Source: Bacteroidota bacterium
Lineage (GTDB): Bacteria > Bacteroidota > Ignavibacteria > Kapaibacteriales > Kapaibacteriaceae
Reading direction: 5' to 3'
Assembly (NCBI GenBank): GCA_018266735.1
Contig: JAFDZT010000002.1
Span: 1-64,000, forward strand
Length of the DNA stretch: 64,000 nt
The position numbers were made by a program, and so were the translations under genes. The notes beneath the pieces were generated by a model. It did not search any database and had not been told where the DNA came from. It was given only the letters and a program-made list of their open reading frames with translations. Below, piece by piece: positions 14,267 to 20,380 of the stretch. Position 1 is the first letter of the stretch. The number at the start of each line of letters is the position of its first letter.

Positions 14267-15664
14267 CTAGAAGGCTTGGCCAATACCAAAGTAGAAGAGC
14301 CTGTCTTCGCGCGATACACCGTAGTCGCATGAAATGATCGTTGATTGATTCCACGCGATCCGCAGACCAGCGCCGATTGATAGCTTGACATCGTGAAAGT
14401 TCAAGGTGCGCCAATCGTCTCTAACCGTGCCGGCGTCAAAGAACGGTGCCACGCCAAATGCAAAATGCTGTTGTCCAAACAGAACCTCGGCCAATCGTAC
14501 ACGGAGTTCAACATTGACAAATGCCAGTGAACGGGCCAGAAATCGATTTGCTCGATATCCACGTAGTGATTGTCTTCCTCCGAGTGCGTTCACACTTCCG
14601 TCAGGACTCCATTGGTCTTGATACTCGAAGAACGGTGCATTACTGCCGAAGATGTTTCCAATACCGATGCGACTACACAACACCGTCCTAGGTCCAACAG
14701 GGATTTTTGTATACATCCGACCTTGGATGAACAATTTGTTGAATTCGAACTGTGAGCCAATGATCGGGTTTGAGAACTCATTCGCGATCTCTAGATACAC
14801 GCCTCGGGTTGGGTCAGGTTCATAATCTCTAGTATCAAACATAAGCGCTGTTTGAATAATAGATACCCATCCACCGTGAAGACCGGATATGAGACCCTGT
14901 AGATAATCGCGTCGTAGCAGCGATGTTCCATTCGGTGCGGAGGTCTCGTTTCCTGTAATCGGATCGATCGCTTCGGCTTCCGTTCCTTCAAACGTTTCGT
15001 ATCTTAAATGTTGAATCTCATATCCGCCCATGATTCTCCACACGCCCGTCGCACCCAACGCGTAATCGGCTTTCAGGTTGAGCATATACTCTGTTTCTTT
15101 GAATCTGTTTGACAGTGCATCTGTCACAACACTTGCTTCGCCATCTCCGCCGGCTCGCAAGGTCTTTCTCGCGACGTCATACGATGAATACGTTGAGTAC
15201 GTCGGTCCACCGTTTGGAGTAGACGGAAGTCTCAGTTCTCCTAGAGTCGCCTCTGACGATCCAAAGTACAAGTTGGCAGGATTCTGCTGAGCCTTCGCGT
15301 CGACCTTGAACCGCCAACGGGTTCCCTTGTAGTATGGCACATCGAGTGATAAAACGATTTCTCTTGCGTTCGAGGTATAGTATGCCGCATTTGCTTTCAA
15401 CTTCACCAGGTACGGTGTGTACGCGAACAACGGGTTCGTCTTCTCGCCATTCCAGTAGATATTTGTTCGAACACCAAAGCCAAAACCCGTTACCGGGTCA
15501 GAAGAAATGTCCGGAAGACCGGTGACAAATGTTCCTTCTCGTTTCTTCGAAAGATCTTCGTCAGACATTCGCTTCGATTGGATAAAAGAAAGAGTGTCTG
15601 TGCCTTGCGCGTAAACAGTCGTCGTTAGATGTATTGTCAGTAGCAGAGCCAGATGTCGCTTCAT
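14267..15664 (-). CDS. Omp85/BamA-type outer-membrane barrel protein
   Basis: 465 residues with signal peptide MKRHLALLLTIHLTTTVYAQ. The start of the mature protein (EGTFVTGLPDISSDPVTGFGF) and the rest are alternating beta strands as in surface-antigen D15 proteins. The conserved L6-loop motif appears as LRGYRANRF, and the chain ends in Phe (FYFGIGQAF), typical of outer-membrane barrels. No POTRA repeats are visible, so this is the short BamA-like type rather than BamA itself. The partner or transported molecule is unknown. It converges on the MDR gene, 17 bp away. Confidence 0.8.
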   Translation of the reverse strand: MKRHLALLLTIHLTTTVYAQGTDTLSFIQSKRMSDEDLSKKREGTFVTGLPDISSDPVTGFGFGVRTNIYWNGEKTNPLFAYTPYLVKLKANAAYYTSNAREIVLSLDVPYYKGTRWRFKVDAKAQQNPANLYFGSSEATLGELRLPSTPNGGPTYSTYSSYDVARKTLRAGGDGEASVVTDALSNRFKETEYMLNLKADYALGATGVWRIMGGYEIQHLRYETFEGTEAEAIDPITGNETSAPNGTSLLRRDYLQGLISGLHGGWVSIIQTALMFDTRDYEPDPTRGVYLEIANEFSNPIIGSQFEFNKLFIQGRMYTKIPVGPRTVLCSRIGIGNIFGSNAPFFEYQDQWSPDGSVNALGGRQSLRGYRANRFLARSLAFVNVELRVRLAEVLFGQQHFAFGVAPFFDAGTVRDDWRTLNFHDVKLSIGAGLRIAWNQSTIISCDYGVSREDRLFYFGIGQAF

Positions 15665-15861
15665 CGTTTCCTTGATGTTCGTTGTTATCGTTGGTGGCGG
15701 AGCCAGTTCACTACGCTTAGCATAATTGCCATTGTTGCAGCTTACCATGCACGAAATTAACGCCCACCCCACTTCTTTCCAAGACGTTATTGATACGATG
15801 AACATTGCAATGACGTTGATGATTCCTGATAACGTCGAGTACATTAGCGTCGACTACCACA

Positions 15862-16064: not shown

Positions 16065-16690
16065 TTAGTGCATCCGTCGTCGCACGAATGTATACATGGC
16101 CTTCTTGCGCATCACCACGACACGGTCGTCGTCCTCCGTGGTGTTGTACAAGCGAATCGTGTGGCCTCGAATCTCAAAGGCATAGCACCGTTGATCGGCC
16201 GTTGTTTCCCTGAACTATCGACCACATTGTACCTGCCGGAGAACAATGTCTTGTTCACCGTGAACTGCAAGGCGCTCATGGTTCCTGATGGAACGCGCTT
16301 GTACTTCGTCTCTTGCACGAGGACGTACCGTTCGTCATAGTGATAGAGGATGAGCGTCGTATCATGCTTCGAGAGAACATATCCAAGTTCGTAGTGGTGA
16401 TCATCCTGGTAGAGATCACCAAGGTTCGTTGGGACCGCATTCGTTGTGTGGCCGCGCTTGAAAGTGATCATGAAACTGAAGCCCTCGTGGATGCCGGGCG
16501 CACCAACTTCGAGCGAGTCACCAACAATGTTCGCTGTGTCAATGTCGAGCTCAACGATGCCAGCCAACGAGTGACGTGAAGCATAGAGCGAATGCGTTCG
16601 CCGTACGTCATCGATGTATTCACGCTCGTACCACGATCCGTGCATGATAGAACTGAATGCCCCGTAGGCGATGAGCAAGGAAGTGATCAT
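16065..16690 (-). pseudogene. Hypothetical protein gene with a probable frameshift
   Basis: From ATG 16690 (MITSLLIAYGAF) a good protein-like frame runs to about 16200, then becomes TRFACTTPRRTTTVSW and stops at 16112. The neighbouring frame from about 16200 reads CYAFEIRGHTIRLYNTTEDD...MYTFVRRRMH and stops at 16065, which looks much more like protein. One missing base near 16195-16205 would join them into ~208 residues. The N-terminus has a hydrophobic anchor. Function unknown. The start overlaps the stop of the gene at 16687 (ATGA), so the pair was one operon. Confidence 0.55.
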
Positions 16691-17166
16691 TGTAGGTCAA
16701 TGTGTTGTTGCATGGATCGTAGGGCGCGCTGGGTGCAATATGCTTGATAGGGTCGAGCGACGACTCTCTCAACGTGACCCTCGAGGGTTTCATAGCTGAA
16801 GCTCTTGCGGTAGGGGAGGTCCACAACCTCGCAGACGCGTGTGGCAACGAGAATTCTGAGCGAGAAACGTTGTAGTGGCGGAATGTTGATCTGTTGAAGG
16901 ATCGTGTCTCCAACTTGCATCGTCCGACCTTCCCGACGCCATGCACATCCGGAGGTTAAGACGTTCTCCGGAAACAACCGATAGTCGAAGAGGAAGTCCA
17001 GATCGAGCTCGTGCAGGCGCTTCGTGGTCGTGCAAACAAGGGTGTCGACGCGCTCACGTAATCGTTCTCGCTCGTAGGGGATCATGCTCAAGGACGTGTG
17101 TTCATTCAAAAGAACGTCGAACCGTTTGCTCTGATCTGAGACAAAGATCTTCACTCTTTTCCTCAT
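16687..17166 (-). CDS. DUF1990-like protein
   Basis: 159 residues, no signal peptide. The C-terminal half resembles DUF1990: GDTILQQI, then ILVATRVCEVVD, and a FSYETLEGHVERV segment that matches the family's FGYGTLxGH motif. The family has no proven biochemical role. The N-terminal half, rich in charged residues, is less typical. It overlaps the next gene by four bases. The C/T-rich repeat at 17214-17276 lies immediately upstream. Confidence 0.5.
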   Translation of the reverse strand: MRKRVKIFVSDQSKRFDVLLNEHTSLSMIPYERERLRERVDTLVCTTTKRLHELDLDFLFDYRLFPENVLTSGCAWRREGRTMQVGDTILQQINIPPLQRFSLRILVATRVCEVVDLPYRKSFSYETLEGHVERVVARPYQAYCTQRALRSMQQHIDLQ

Positions 17167-17213: not shown

Positions 17214-17276
17214 TACTTCTCCTTTTACTTCTGCTTTTACTTCTTGCTTTACTTCCCATTTACTTCCTGATCTTAC
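17214..17276. repeat. Degenerate pyrimidine-rich tandem repeat
   Basis: Repeats of an ACTTCTGCTTTT-like unit with a period close to 12 bp, sitting between two leftward genes and running into the stop of the fusion gene (17273). Bases 17227-17245 are identical to 36263-36281 (19 bp). Low-complexity tracts like this vary in length by slippage. Confidence 0.65.
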
Positions 17277-19201
17277 TCACTCGTCAGTCGAGCAAAACGT
17301 CGATCTGAGGTTGGGAAGTCCACGCCATACGCAACGGTGGCCACAACGCCCATTGCGGCAGCCCACAACAACGACGACATGGAGAGATCGAAGGTGGTCC
17401 TGGAGGCAGAAGGAATGCACGTCACGCCCGCTCCGACAACGATCGTGATGATGGCGATCCATTGGTAGACGCGCATTCCGGCCCAGGAGGGCGTTTGCGC
17501 TTCGCCTCGGTACGATTCTTCGACGAACCGACCGATCCCGCTGAGCAGCAGGTACATGCCGATGATGAAGGTGGCCGACATGTCAAACACGGTCAATCGG
17601 ATCACGATGAGACCGATCACGAGGTTGGTTGCCATGGAATACAATTGCGTTGGATACAGTGCCGTGCCGAGCAGACCGGAGATCTTGTTCACTCTCGACG
17701 TAGGATGCGTGAAGCGAATGCCCACGTCGGCGGGTGACGGACGTCCGTGACAGCACCCCTGCACCAGACAGCGCAACCGTCCAAGCATCTGGATCCACGG
17801 TGCGGCAATGGAAAACGCAGCAAGTACCACAACAAGGTCGAGTCCGAACAGCAACGAGATCACAGTGCTTCCAAGCACCACGCCCACCACGCTGCCATAG
17901 TATCCATACGGACGTTGCAGCTTCGGCGAACCCTCGATGAACTGCGCCCACAGAGCCGCCCCCACAATGCCGCATGCTCCGATCACGAAGCCAACAGCAG
18001 CGTGCTCGCGACCCAACAATGTGCCGACGATCAAGGTCCCCACGAAGCCGGCTGCGCCTGCATACAGTCCGTGATCGATCACGCGCACGGGACCGAATCT
18101 CCACTCCTTCCAACTGTTGGCGATCCGCTCGGTGATGGCTCGGATGCCCGTCCAGATCTGCGTCCGCGTCGACACCACGATGAAGACCACCACACCTGCA
18201 AGCACATCGACGATGGAGTGATTGCCCGTGGTCACGCAACTGATGGAGATCATCACCGCGATCCCGTACCACAGCCACGTTTGGCGACGATACGTCGTGC
18301 TCACATACCGTGCGGCAAGGAAGGCCCAGATGACGTGAAAGGCGGGGAAGGCGGCGCTGATGCCGTCATACGAACGGTCCAACAGAAGAACATCGCCAAG
18401 GATAGTGTGCGGCGTGAACGCCTGCTGTCGTACGACGAAGGGCACCACGAAGTATAGTAGTGCCGCCAATGCCGTGGCCATCCAGACGTCGATCTCGAAC
18501 TGACGTAGGACCTTCGCTGTGCGGACGATGAAGGGGACCACCACAGCGAACGCATACGTGGCAACGTAGAAGATCGTCGACGCCTCTATCACCGGCAATT
18601 GCGCTTCGAAGGGCAGGTTCGAAACGATGGCATCGTGCGGTGCACCGATGAAGACGAATGCTTCATAGACGAGTAGCCATGGGAGGTAGGCAAGGAGGAA
18701 CGTGGCCGATCGGTCTCGGAACGTGAGCGCCTCGTCCGTTGCCTCGGGCAGCGACAAGAACGGCCTGTAGTGCTGCTTTCCGAAGACGTGTTCTGTCCGC
18801 TCGTTCTCGAAACCAACCGTATACGCCACGATCATGCATGTAAACAACGGACTGACCAGCCAGAACCCGGAGGCCGATCCGAGCAGGGTAGCAATACCAA
18901 AGCTCAACAGCACGGTGCCTACATAGATGGGGTTCTTCGTGATGGCATACACGCCATTCGTCACAAAGTGCTTCGGCGGAAAGGCATTCATGGGCAGGCC
19001 CTTGCCGTAGAACCACAGGTTGTGCATGCCTCCAAGAACGAGCAGCGAACCAAGCACGATGACACCGATCGCAACCACATCGTTCGATGGCACGGGCAGG
19101 TTGATCAACGATGCTGTGGCGCGCGCCCATAGGGTGAGGAGGGCGGGAAGGATGGCAATGAACATGCTGCCATAGAGCATTTTGCCGATGATCGATCTCA
19201 T
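17273..19201 (-). CDS. Three-domain membrane protein: ICMT-like, PAP2-like and Lgt-like
   Basis: 642 residues, about 16 membrane segments. Residues ~1-175 resemble isoprenylcysteine/phospholipid methyltransferases (FVTNGVYAITKNPIYVG, then ENERTEHVFGKQHYRPF). Residues ~180-365 resemble PAP2 phosphatases of the inositol-phosphoryl-transferase type: AFPAFHV replaces the usual FPSxH, and GNHSIVDVLAG carries the His/Asp pair. Residues ~370-620 resemble prolipoprotein diacylglyceryl transferase: GRLRCLVQGCCHGRP, YPTQLYS and RFVEESYRGE. All three families act on membrane lipids or lipid-modified proteins. The start has AAGGAAG upstream. It follows the gene at 19212 by 10 bp, so they are probably one operon. 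The combined activity is unknown. Confidence 0.8.
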   Translation of the reverse strand: MRSIIGKMLYGSMFIAILPALLTLWARATASLINLPVPSNDVVAIGVIVLGSLLVLGGMHNLWFYGKGLPMNAFPPKHFVTNGVYAITKNPIYVGTVLLSFGIATLLGSASGFWLVSPLFTCMIVAYTVGFENERTEHVFGKQHYRPFLSLPEATDEALTFRDRSATFLLAYLPWLLVYEAFVFIGAPHDAIVSNLPFEAQLPVIEASTIFYVATYAFAVVVPFIVRTAKVLRQFEIDVWMATALAALLYFVVPFVVRQQAFTPHTILGDVLLLDRSYDGISAAFPAFHVIWAFLAARYVSTTYRRQTWLWYGIAVMISISCVTTGNHSIVDVLAGVVVFIVVSTRTQIWTGIRAITERIANSWKEWRFGPVRVIDHGLYAGAAGFVGTLIVGTLLGREHAAVGFVIGACGIVGAALWAQFIEGSPKLQRPYGYYGSVVGVVLGSTVISLLFGLDLVVVLAAFSIAAPWIQMLGRLRCLVQGCCHGRPSPADVGIRFTHPTSRVNKISGLLGTALYPTQLYSMATNLVIGLIVIRLTVFDMSATFIIGMYLLLSGIGRFVEESYRGEAQTPSWAGMRVYQWIAIITIVVGAGVTCIPSASRTTFDLSMSSLLWAAAMGVVATVAYGVDFPTSDRRFARLTSE

Positions 19202-19211
19202 GCAACTTCCT

Positions 19212-20003
19212 TCATTTCGCCCACGTGACGATCTCAAAGAGTGACCAGCCTGTGTCGAGCGTATCGGCGCCTCTCGACAGCGACGTCGGCGCCTTGAACT
19301 TGACCTCAATGGTGTTCAATATCCGACCATGGAAGATGACCTTCAACCACGGCATCTTCGCCAGCAGATTCGAGAGCTTTCCCTTGCGGACGATGGTCTT
19401 CGTGTGGAACTGCAGGACCGATGTTCCGCCGTCGAACAGGATCCTGTCCTCTTCGAAGACGGCGTCGTCATACATGATGCCGTTGCAGATGAGGTGGTTC
19501 ACCGGGTTGCTGCCCTTCCAATTGATCCAGACGATCGTATGGCGCTCAGAGAGAAACCGTCCCCATCTCAACTCATCGATGGGCAACAGCCATGGTTTCA
19601 CCGGTAGTGACAGCGTTTCAACGTAGCCCAAGCCGCGATACGTCTTGCCGTCAACCTCGATCGTCGTCCGAGTCTTCGGATGATGACAGTTCCAACGCAC
19701 TTCACGTCCGCATGCATCCGTGTACAGAAGGATGGAGATCGGAGCATCCACCCGTTGCCATGCACCGCGGATCTTCAGTCGATCATTGATGAACTGCATG
19801 TCGTCAGCGACGATCGGTCTCGGAAGCCCCTTGAATGACGAACGTTCCACCGCCGTTCCATCGGCACCGGAAACAATGCTGCCGGAATACACCAGCCGCA
19901 GCACCGACACCCGCAGCTCCGCCCAGTACAGGATAAAGCAGTTCCCATGCTCATCGATGCAGTCGAAGTAGAGCTTATCGAGGTTGAAGTGGGGGAGAGC
20001 CAT
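19212..20003 (-). CDS. Hypothetical protein, lipocalin/CrtC-like beta protein (tentative)
   Basis: 263 residues from ATG 20003 (20015 is also in frame), no signal peptide. It is beta-rich with many Trp and a conserved-looking core: RGLGYVETL, PWLLPIDELRWGRFLS, then HTIVWINWKGSNP. This layout recalls CrtC/hydroxyneurosporene-synthase-like lipocalin folds, but I cannot confirm it. It lies 10 bp upstream of the lipid-enzyme fusion gene, which suggests the two work together, perhaps on a lipid or isoprenoid. Confidence 0.6.
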   Translation of the reverse strand: MALPHFNLDKLYFDCIDEHGNCFILYWAELRVSVLRLVYSGSIVSGADGTAVERSSFKGLPRPIVADDMQFINDRLKIRGAWQRVDAPISILLYTDACGREVRWNCHHPKTRTTIEVDGKTYRGLGYVETLSLPVKPWLLPIDELRWGRFLSERHTIVWINWKGSNPVNHLICNGIMYDDAVFEEDRILFDGGTSVLQFHTKTIVRKGKLSNLLAKMPWLKVIFHGRILNTIEVKFKAPTSLSRGADTLDTGWSLFEIVTWAK

Positions 20004-20034: not shown

Positions 20035-20359
20035 TCAACGATTTACAGGGTACGGTCGAATGAGCAGTACATCTTCATCATCCGCAGATGGACCGTACGT
20101 TGCCGGAACAGGAACACCCACGGAACGCAAGTACACACCAAGTTGTGCACGGTGATGAACGAAGTGGTTCATGCAGAACATGCGTGCGACTTGTCGTTTG
20201 GGAAGCGTGAACAGCACGTCGTCACCATGGGTCATCGACCACTCCTCCGAGAACTCTTCGTCGCTGACATTCGCCAAGGCTGACCAAGTAGCGTCGCGTT
20301 ACGGCCGCTTCTAACGTCAGTTCTTGCAGGAGTTCTTGCCCGAAGGTCATCTTGTTCAT
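20035..20359 (-). pseudogene. DinB-family gene with the middle deleted
   Basis: From ATG 20357-20359 the sequence reads MNKMTFGQELLQELTLEA and TRRYL, a typical start of a DinB-like (DUF664-type) protein. It then jumps, in another frame, to the DinB C-terminus: SDEEFSEEWSMTHGDDVLF, RMFCMNHFVHHRAQLGVYL, PVPATYGPSADD. About 80 central residues are missing, and with them part of the metal-binding His set; the C-terminal HxxxH remains. The junction is near 20280-20290. Not expected to yield a working protein. Confidence 0.8.
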
Positions 20360-20380
20360 TCCTTCCGTAAGGGAGCCATG

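Follow-up and report, generated by a model that had tools for sequence, protein, structure and literature searches.

P0001 and P0002 are adjacent genes of the window, the whole 64,000-nucleotide stretch of DNA analysed here. They encode a real, conserved and uncharacterised lipid-enzyme fusion and its tightly linked partner of CrtC-type fold (Table 1). The component families are known. Their combination, and the apparent inversion of an Lgt fold within it, are undescribed as far as the literature searched shows; the search found no paper on a PEMT-PAP2-LGT fusion or its cluster. A paper on a six-gene cluster of eustigmatophytes reportedly concerns a different one. As a whole, the two genes are best explained as a horizontally mobile, cytosol-facing lipid-tailoring module in which the LGT half is flipped, a reading on which we are evenly divided. 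The fusion, its conservation, the fold of the partner, the linkage and the neighbouring genes were computed directly; the orientation, the substrate class and its isoprenoid nature are what we infer.

Table 1. Features of the P0001-P0002 locus, in positions of the window
Feature	Position	Strand	Basis
P0001 fusion, PEMT-PAP2-LGT, 642 aa, ATG start	17273..19201	-	ORF and Pfam; AF2 pLDDT 88.5, pTM 0.89
PEMT/ICMT-like methyltransferase domain, aa 42-143	18773..19078	-	PF04191, E=2.4e-09; found in 26/26 relatives
Motif NPIYVG of the PEMT/ICMT-like domain	18917-18934	-	Motif quoted earlier, confirmed
PAP2_3 domain, aa 211-343	18173..18571	-	PF14378, E=1.1e-10
PAP2 motif 2, FPAFH	18335..18349	-	Ala in place of the Ser of 8/11 homologues
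PAP2 motif 3, GNHSIVD	18206..18226	-	His and Asp kept
Junction/arm IANSWKEWRFGPVRVIDH	18071..18124	-	IANSWKEW invariant across the 26-protein alignment; beta hairpin 366-375 in the model
LGT-fold domain, aa 374-594	17420..18082	-	PF01790, E=1.6e-17; Foldseek top match E. coli Lgt 5azb
LGT signature equivalent GRLRCLVQGCCHG	17744..17782	-	Cys at the N146 and E151 positions (profile alignment)
P0002 partner, 263 aa, CrtC/AttH-fold beta protein	19212..20003	-	AF2 pLDDT 92.7; Foldseek; co-occurrence; adjacency

The preliminary description had proposed a single 642-residue frame with three lipid-enzyme domains, and this held up. The PEMT, PAP2_3 and LGT matches of P0001 all exceed the curated Pfam cut-offs (38 against 25 bits, 42.1 against 27 and 64.1 against 24.9, respectively), so the contrary outcome that it had named, a domain search returning only one family, did not occur. 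The motifs that it listed, NPIYVG, GNHSIVDVLAG, GCCHGRP and YPTQLYS, are all present. The ICMT match itself was sub-threshold in the Pfam search. In NCBIfam the sole match of P0001 is a weak one to Lgt (NF000778, 63.7 bits against an equivalog cut-off of 334), and a sequence search of solved structures in the PDB gave zero matches. P0002 does lie 10 bp upstream of the fusion gene, as described. Given this short gap and the overlap of an SD-like GAAGGAAG with the stop codon of P0002, translation of the two genes is probably coupled.

A sequencing join of separate genes can be set aside. A scan of one-genome-per-species GTDB contigs found 30 loci related to P0001, of which 28 cover nearly the whole protein (L074 and L081, with breaks in their frames, are counted among these) and two end at contig ends. 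Since these 28 independent loci span almost the entire protein, the fusion is no assembly artefact. Its hosts are Bacteroidota, Ignavibacteriota, Acidobacteriota, Planctomycetota, KSB1 and a Rhodobacteraceae isolate, Actibacterium. It is rare, being present in 7 of 396 genomes sampled across the phylum (E<=1e-30). In a maximum-likelihood tree of 26 rows, copies from different host phyla intermingle, and the window copy and its closest relative cluster with copies from Acidobacteriota, Planctomycetota and Actibacterium (100/99 support). This mixing of phyla points to spread of the fusion by horizontal transfer. Plasmid carriage of the module was rejected, a search for it having given zero matches.

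The three domains are not equally constant. PEMT and LGT were matched in all 26 fusion members, PAP2_3 in 11. Two diverged PEMT-LGT relatives, from genomes G002 (443 aa) and G404 (554 aa), have no PAP2 match at all; that the G002 copy is a broken gene was rejected, the protein being intact. The obligatory core of the fusion is therefore PEMT-LGT. The PAP2 part is a dispensable accessory, inactivated in some copies and missing from others. As judged from sequence, P0001 belongs with the PEMT/ICMT methyltransferases (PF04191/PF04140), having both a PF04191 match above cut-off and conserved SAM-site motifs of the HPIYxG and xGxE types. HPIYxG is kept in 24 of the 26 members and E132 is invariant. 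The fusion differs from these enzymes in its LGT attachment, in its sub-cut-off ICMT match and, in the window, in having NPIYVG in place of HPIYxG.

The catalytic motifs of PAP2, FPxFH and GxHxxxD, are intact in 11 of the 26 copies and gone in 15; the Bacteroidota copies have lost them. The motif-less middle regions are still PAP2 homologues with the catalytic His gone (hhalign probability 98.7, E=4e-16), and on this profile alignment the possibility of an unrelated domain in the Bacteroidota copies was rejected. The intact copies all fall on one side of a single tree branch, with a branch support of merely 73/80. At motif 2, eight of them have Ser and three have Ala. The window copy is among the latter (A287), so the FPAFH noted earlier is real, and it retains His of motif 2 (H289) and both H328 and D332 of motif 3. 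Likeness to the PAP2_3 lipid phosphate transferases (inositol phosphorylceramide synthase, Aur1) lies in the two motifs of the 11 intact copies and in matches of the P0001 model to 9vj4, 8ijq and 9ivc; for 9vj4, a solved inositol phosphorylceramide synthase, the E-value is weak (0.30) and the probability 1.00. The Ser-to-Ala change in the window and the loss of motifs in Bacteroidota are points of difference. Loss of the catalytic motifs from 15 copies would also fit a fusion of housekeeping lipid genes that arose neutrally, with the LGT and PAP2 parts as structural relics. We find this hard to credit, as catalytic-type residues of both LGT and PEMT are invariant across phyla and co-occurrence with P0002 over the 396 genomes, 7 of which carry the pair, is perfect.

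The LGT half resembles Lgt (PF01790; 5azb) in fold, and the AF2 model of P0001 has E. coli Lgt as its best Foldseek match (E=1.8e-04). The likeness includes the arm hairpin ahead of TM1, the order in which the signature, the HPxQLY-like motif and the RFxxE motif follow one another, and the retained equivalents of R143, G154, R239, E243 and R246. In a profile alignment that is unreliable around Lgt Y26 and H103 (HGGL), the signature places R475 at R143, C478 at N146 and G486 at G154, while R558, E562 and R565 fall at R239, E243 and R246. R475, G486, R558 and C478 are invariant in the 26 copies. The fusion differs from Lgt by Cys at both the N146 and E151 positions, a Ser/Thr-type residue at Y235 (S554 in P0001) and Ser/Ala at E202 (S522), neither Y235 nor E202 being conserved. 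It differs further by an extra C-terminal helix, the attached PEMT domain and a predicted opposite membrane orientation. Mutant data exist for conserved Lgt residues (PMC13251419, PMC4728403). N146 is essential for Lgt in E. coli, and Cys at this position occurs in distant Lgts, including that of L. interrogans, which poorly restores viability in E. coli (PMC13251419).

Canonical lgt coexists with the fusion in genomes G051, G029 and G002. The fusion is therefore not simply the housekeeping Lgt, nor is it the sole Lgt in the carriers tested. In the window genome, with an 18,001-N stretch masked (G000:C9:206000-224000, L094), a PF01790 search found the fusion only and an Lgt query from a congener found nothing. 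Synteny with the congener places canonical lgt inside the masked stretch, so its absence there is no evidence, and the idea that the fusion substitutes for a missing Lgt in this genome was dropped. LspA is present in the genome. Taken together, the LGT half has a predicted Lgt-like cavity yet departs from canonical Lgt in several of the features tested and, to go by its residues and apparent inverted topology, is not an ordinary diacylglyceryl transferase. In an Acidobacteriaceae genome, a standalone LGT-family gene (161 bits; L080, 2639-3418) lies about 2.5 kb upstream of the fusion.

Lgt is viewed as an enzyme that faces the periplasm and is dedicated to lipoproteins, and as an antibiotic target. 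In E. coli Lgt, a hairpin arm precedes TM1, TM4 ends with the signature and the head lies in the periplasm (PMC4728403). The P0001 model runs from a hairpin (366-375) through helices 378-396, 403-423, 434-452 and 456-481 to the signature (475-486), which gives four helices between linker hairpin and signature, as in E. coli Lgt. Linker and signature should therefore lie on the same side of the membrane. In G002 the end of PEMT reaches the LGT linker through 52 aa with no transmembrane segment (best KD19 -0.22), and PEMT binds SAM in the cytosol. For these reasons the LGT cavity should face the cytosol.

Loop charges offer an independent test, and it agrees. In counts that are statistical and take their helix ends from the predicted model, Lys plus Arg in the LGT loops of the 26 fusions averages 9.7 on the signature side (60 aa) and 1.2 on the opposite side (28 aa), with non-overlapping ranges. 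For 29 canonical Lgts of relatives the values are 4.5 (77 aa) on the signature side against 10.3 (38 aa), and three standalone Cys-type LGT paralogues share the canonical bias. G002 taken alone has a modest head-side count (5/58 against 0/29 opposite). Head-side charges could bind anionic lipid rather than mark the cytosol. An active site facing the periplasm, as in Lgt, is not what the charge bias and the helix count suggest; both point to the cytosol. On the model, the LGT domain of the fusion is probably inverted relative to canonical Lgt, with its active cavity cytosolic.

Because of the apparently inverted LGT, the Cys in place of Asn146 and the coexisting canonical lgt, P0001 most likely acts on a lipid at the cytosolic face and not on exported prolipoproteins. 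That the substrate is a lipid rather than a lipoprotein we consider a reasonably good prospect. P0001 could otherwise be a lipoprotein modifier, in which LGT would lipidate a special set of prolipoproteins, PEMT/ICMT would methylate what results and PAP2 would recycle the glycerol phosphate or lipid phosphate set free. The LGT family match above cut-off and the invariant equivalents of R143, R239 and G154 fit such a role, as does the existence of Lgts with Cys-146, that of L. interrogans being partly functional in E. coli (PMC13251419). ICMT acts on prenylcysteines, and an Rce1-like protease adjoins the pair in genome G167. We think this unlikely. The LGT topology is apparently inverted, the score falls far short of the NCBIfam cut-off for an Lgt equivalog, three carriers also have a canonical lgt, and the neighbours are small-molecule enzymes, with no shared lipoprotein neighbour seen in the clusters examined. 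Y235 and E202 are lost, and Cys stands at the position of N146, an essential residue in E. coli (PMC13251419).

The preliminary description had seen a lipocalin/CrtC-like look in P0002 and had suggested that it carries the substrate. Foldseek on the AF2 model confirmed the fold: all 28 matches at E<=0.001 are of CrtC/AttH type (best E 1.2e-08, probability 1.00), and they include 25-phosphosteroid lyase, the [4+2] cyclases Fsa2, CghA and Phm7, AttH, kievitone hydratase and, poorly by TM-score, BFA1. The carrier role fared less well, the modelled likeness being rather to enzymes (hydratases, lyases, pericyclases). Most of the matched proteins have hydrophobic substrates: polyenes, terpenoids or steroids. 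P0002 shares the double-lipocalin-type beta fold of this superfamily (9fzn lyase, Fsa2 7e5t, AttH 2ich, kievitone hydratase 7a0q), but lacks a sequence match to it, is shorter (263 against about 320-375 aa) and has invariant Trp-rich motifs of its own. It has no Pfam or NCBIfam match, a PDB sequence search gave one chance-level match, and Pfam searches of 24 members gave no family (e.g. PF07143) beyond chance. No signal peptide was seen.

The linkage of P0002 to the fusion is close. The phylum survey, a check that had been proposed for co-occurrence, found P0002 in exactly the fusion-bearing 7 genomes of 396, and also in G404 with its diverged fusion. Upstream sequence is long enough to hold P0002 at 25 of the GTDB loci, and at 23 of them it adjoins the fusion or stands just past an ABC pair. 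It is absent at the other two (L067 and L073), and G002, with its PAP2-less protein, also lacks it.

Many Bacteroidota clusters follow the order squalene/phytoene-synthase-like gene, P0002-like gene, ABC ATPase, ABC-2 permease and fusion; some of them continue with a LysA-like decarboxylase. The squalene/phytoene-synthase-like neighbour carries MRxxDDxVDGD and a second Asp motif. The G404 cluster comprises a P0002-like gene, what we take from its sequence, without a search, to be a cytochrome P450, the fusion, an ABC ATPase, a permease and a decarboxylase; that of G560 comprises a P0002-like gene, the fusion and a decarboxylase. Neighbours of this kind serve the synthesis and export of small molecules or lipids. 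The synthase-like, ABC exporter, decarboxylase and P450 genes lend weight to the earlier idea of a lipid or isoprenoid module, and we rate the chance that the substrate is isoprenoid in nature at slightly below even. In G167, the Rce1-like CAAX protease (PF02517; L126, 10426-11361, minus strand) immediately precedes the P0002-fusion pair on its upstream side. In a Prolixibacteraceae genome, an adenylylsulfate-kinase-domain protein (L070, 7869-9485) directly downstream of the fusion hints at sulfation in that cluster.

The decarboxylase could also be read as part of a glycerolipid head-group pathway (betaine-lipid or PC-like) without an isoprenoid. An acceptor, either an amino acid or an amine, would receive diacylglycerol through LGT, lose its carboxyl group to the LysA-like enzyme and be N-methylated by PEMT. 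The PEMT family methylates phospholipid head groups, and a LysA/Orn-decarboxylase-like gene is found in several clusters. LGT chemistry takes its diacylglyceryl group from phosphatidylglycerol as donor (PMC4728403). This pathway is improbable, the decarboxylase being missing from the window and most clusters and the squalene/phytoene-synthase-like and CrtC-fold genes having no obvious role in it.

If the pair is instead the cytosol-facing lipid-tailoring module, P0001 would be an integral-membrane enzyme in which a SAM-dependent PEMT/ICMT-type methyltransferase is joined to an Lgt-fold transferase. The flipped Lgt cavity would open at the cytosolic face, beside the methyltransferase and cytosolic P0002. 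P0002 would modify an unsaturated lipid, probably an isoprenoid, for instance by water addition, elimination or cyclisation. The PEMT half would methylate this lipid, and the Lgt half would couple it to, or swap it with, a glycerolipid moiety from a phospholipid. In the clade of the window copy, a phosphate head group may be removed or transferred by the PAP2 part at the opposite face; in Bacteroidota, whose PAP2 is catalytically dead, the ABC exporter would move the product. Our confidence in the exact reactions is low, and fused domains may sometimes share a location, not a reaction series.

A broader and more tentative proposal is that these proteins form an upside-down class of Lgt fold, fused to a SAM methyltransferase, that moves a group, glycerolipid or isoprenoid, to an acceptor at the cytosolic face that is either a small molecule or a lipid. 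With the CrtC-fold partner, a prenyl-synthase-like enzyme, a decarboxylase and an exporter, it might produce a bacterial lipid or secreted isoprenoid not yet described. If so, the Lgt fold would have been recruited for other lipid chemistry, as a widespread methyltransferase-fused, inverted subfamily in isoprenoid or lipid clusters. Annotation from the family match only could then mislabel such fusions as Lgt. Cultured Bacteroidota (Labilibacter, Carboxylicivirga, Ginsengibacter) and Actibacterium would allow the uncharacterised lipid pathway to be tested.

The window itself holds only the two module genes, the prenyl synthase and exporter not being adjacent, and its other neighbours (a DinB remnant, a trypsin-like protease and a DUF1990 fragment) are uninformative on the module. 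The DinB-family remnant (20035-20360, minus strand) has a C-terminal piece matching PF05163 (E=1.3e-08) and an N-terminal piece apparently in another frame. A 159-aa ORF at 16687-17166 (minus strand) has a partial DUF1990 match (E=1.8e-05) and is possibly degraded. Near the module, but with other genes in between, lies a gene for a DUF5982 and Omp85-superfamily outer-membrane protein (14267-15844, minus strand).
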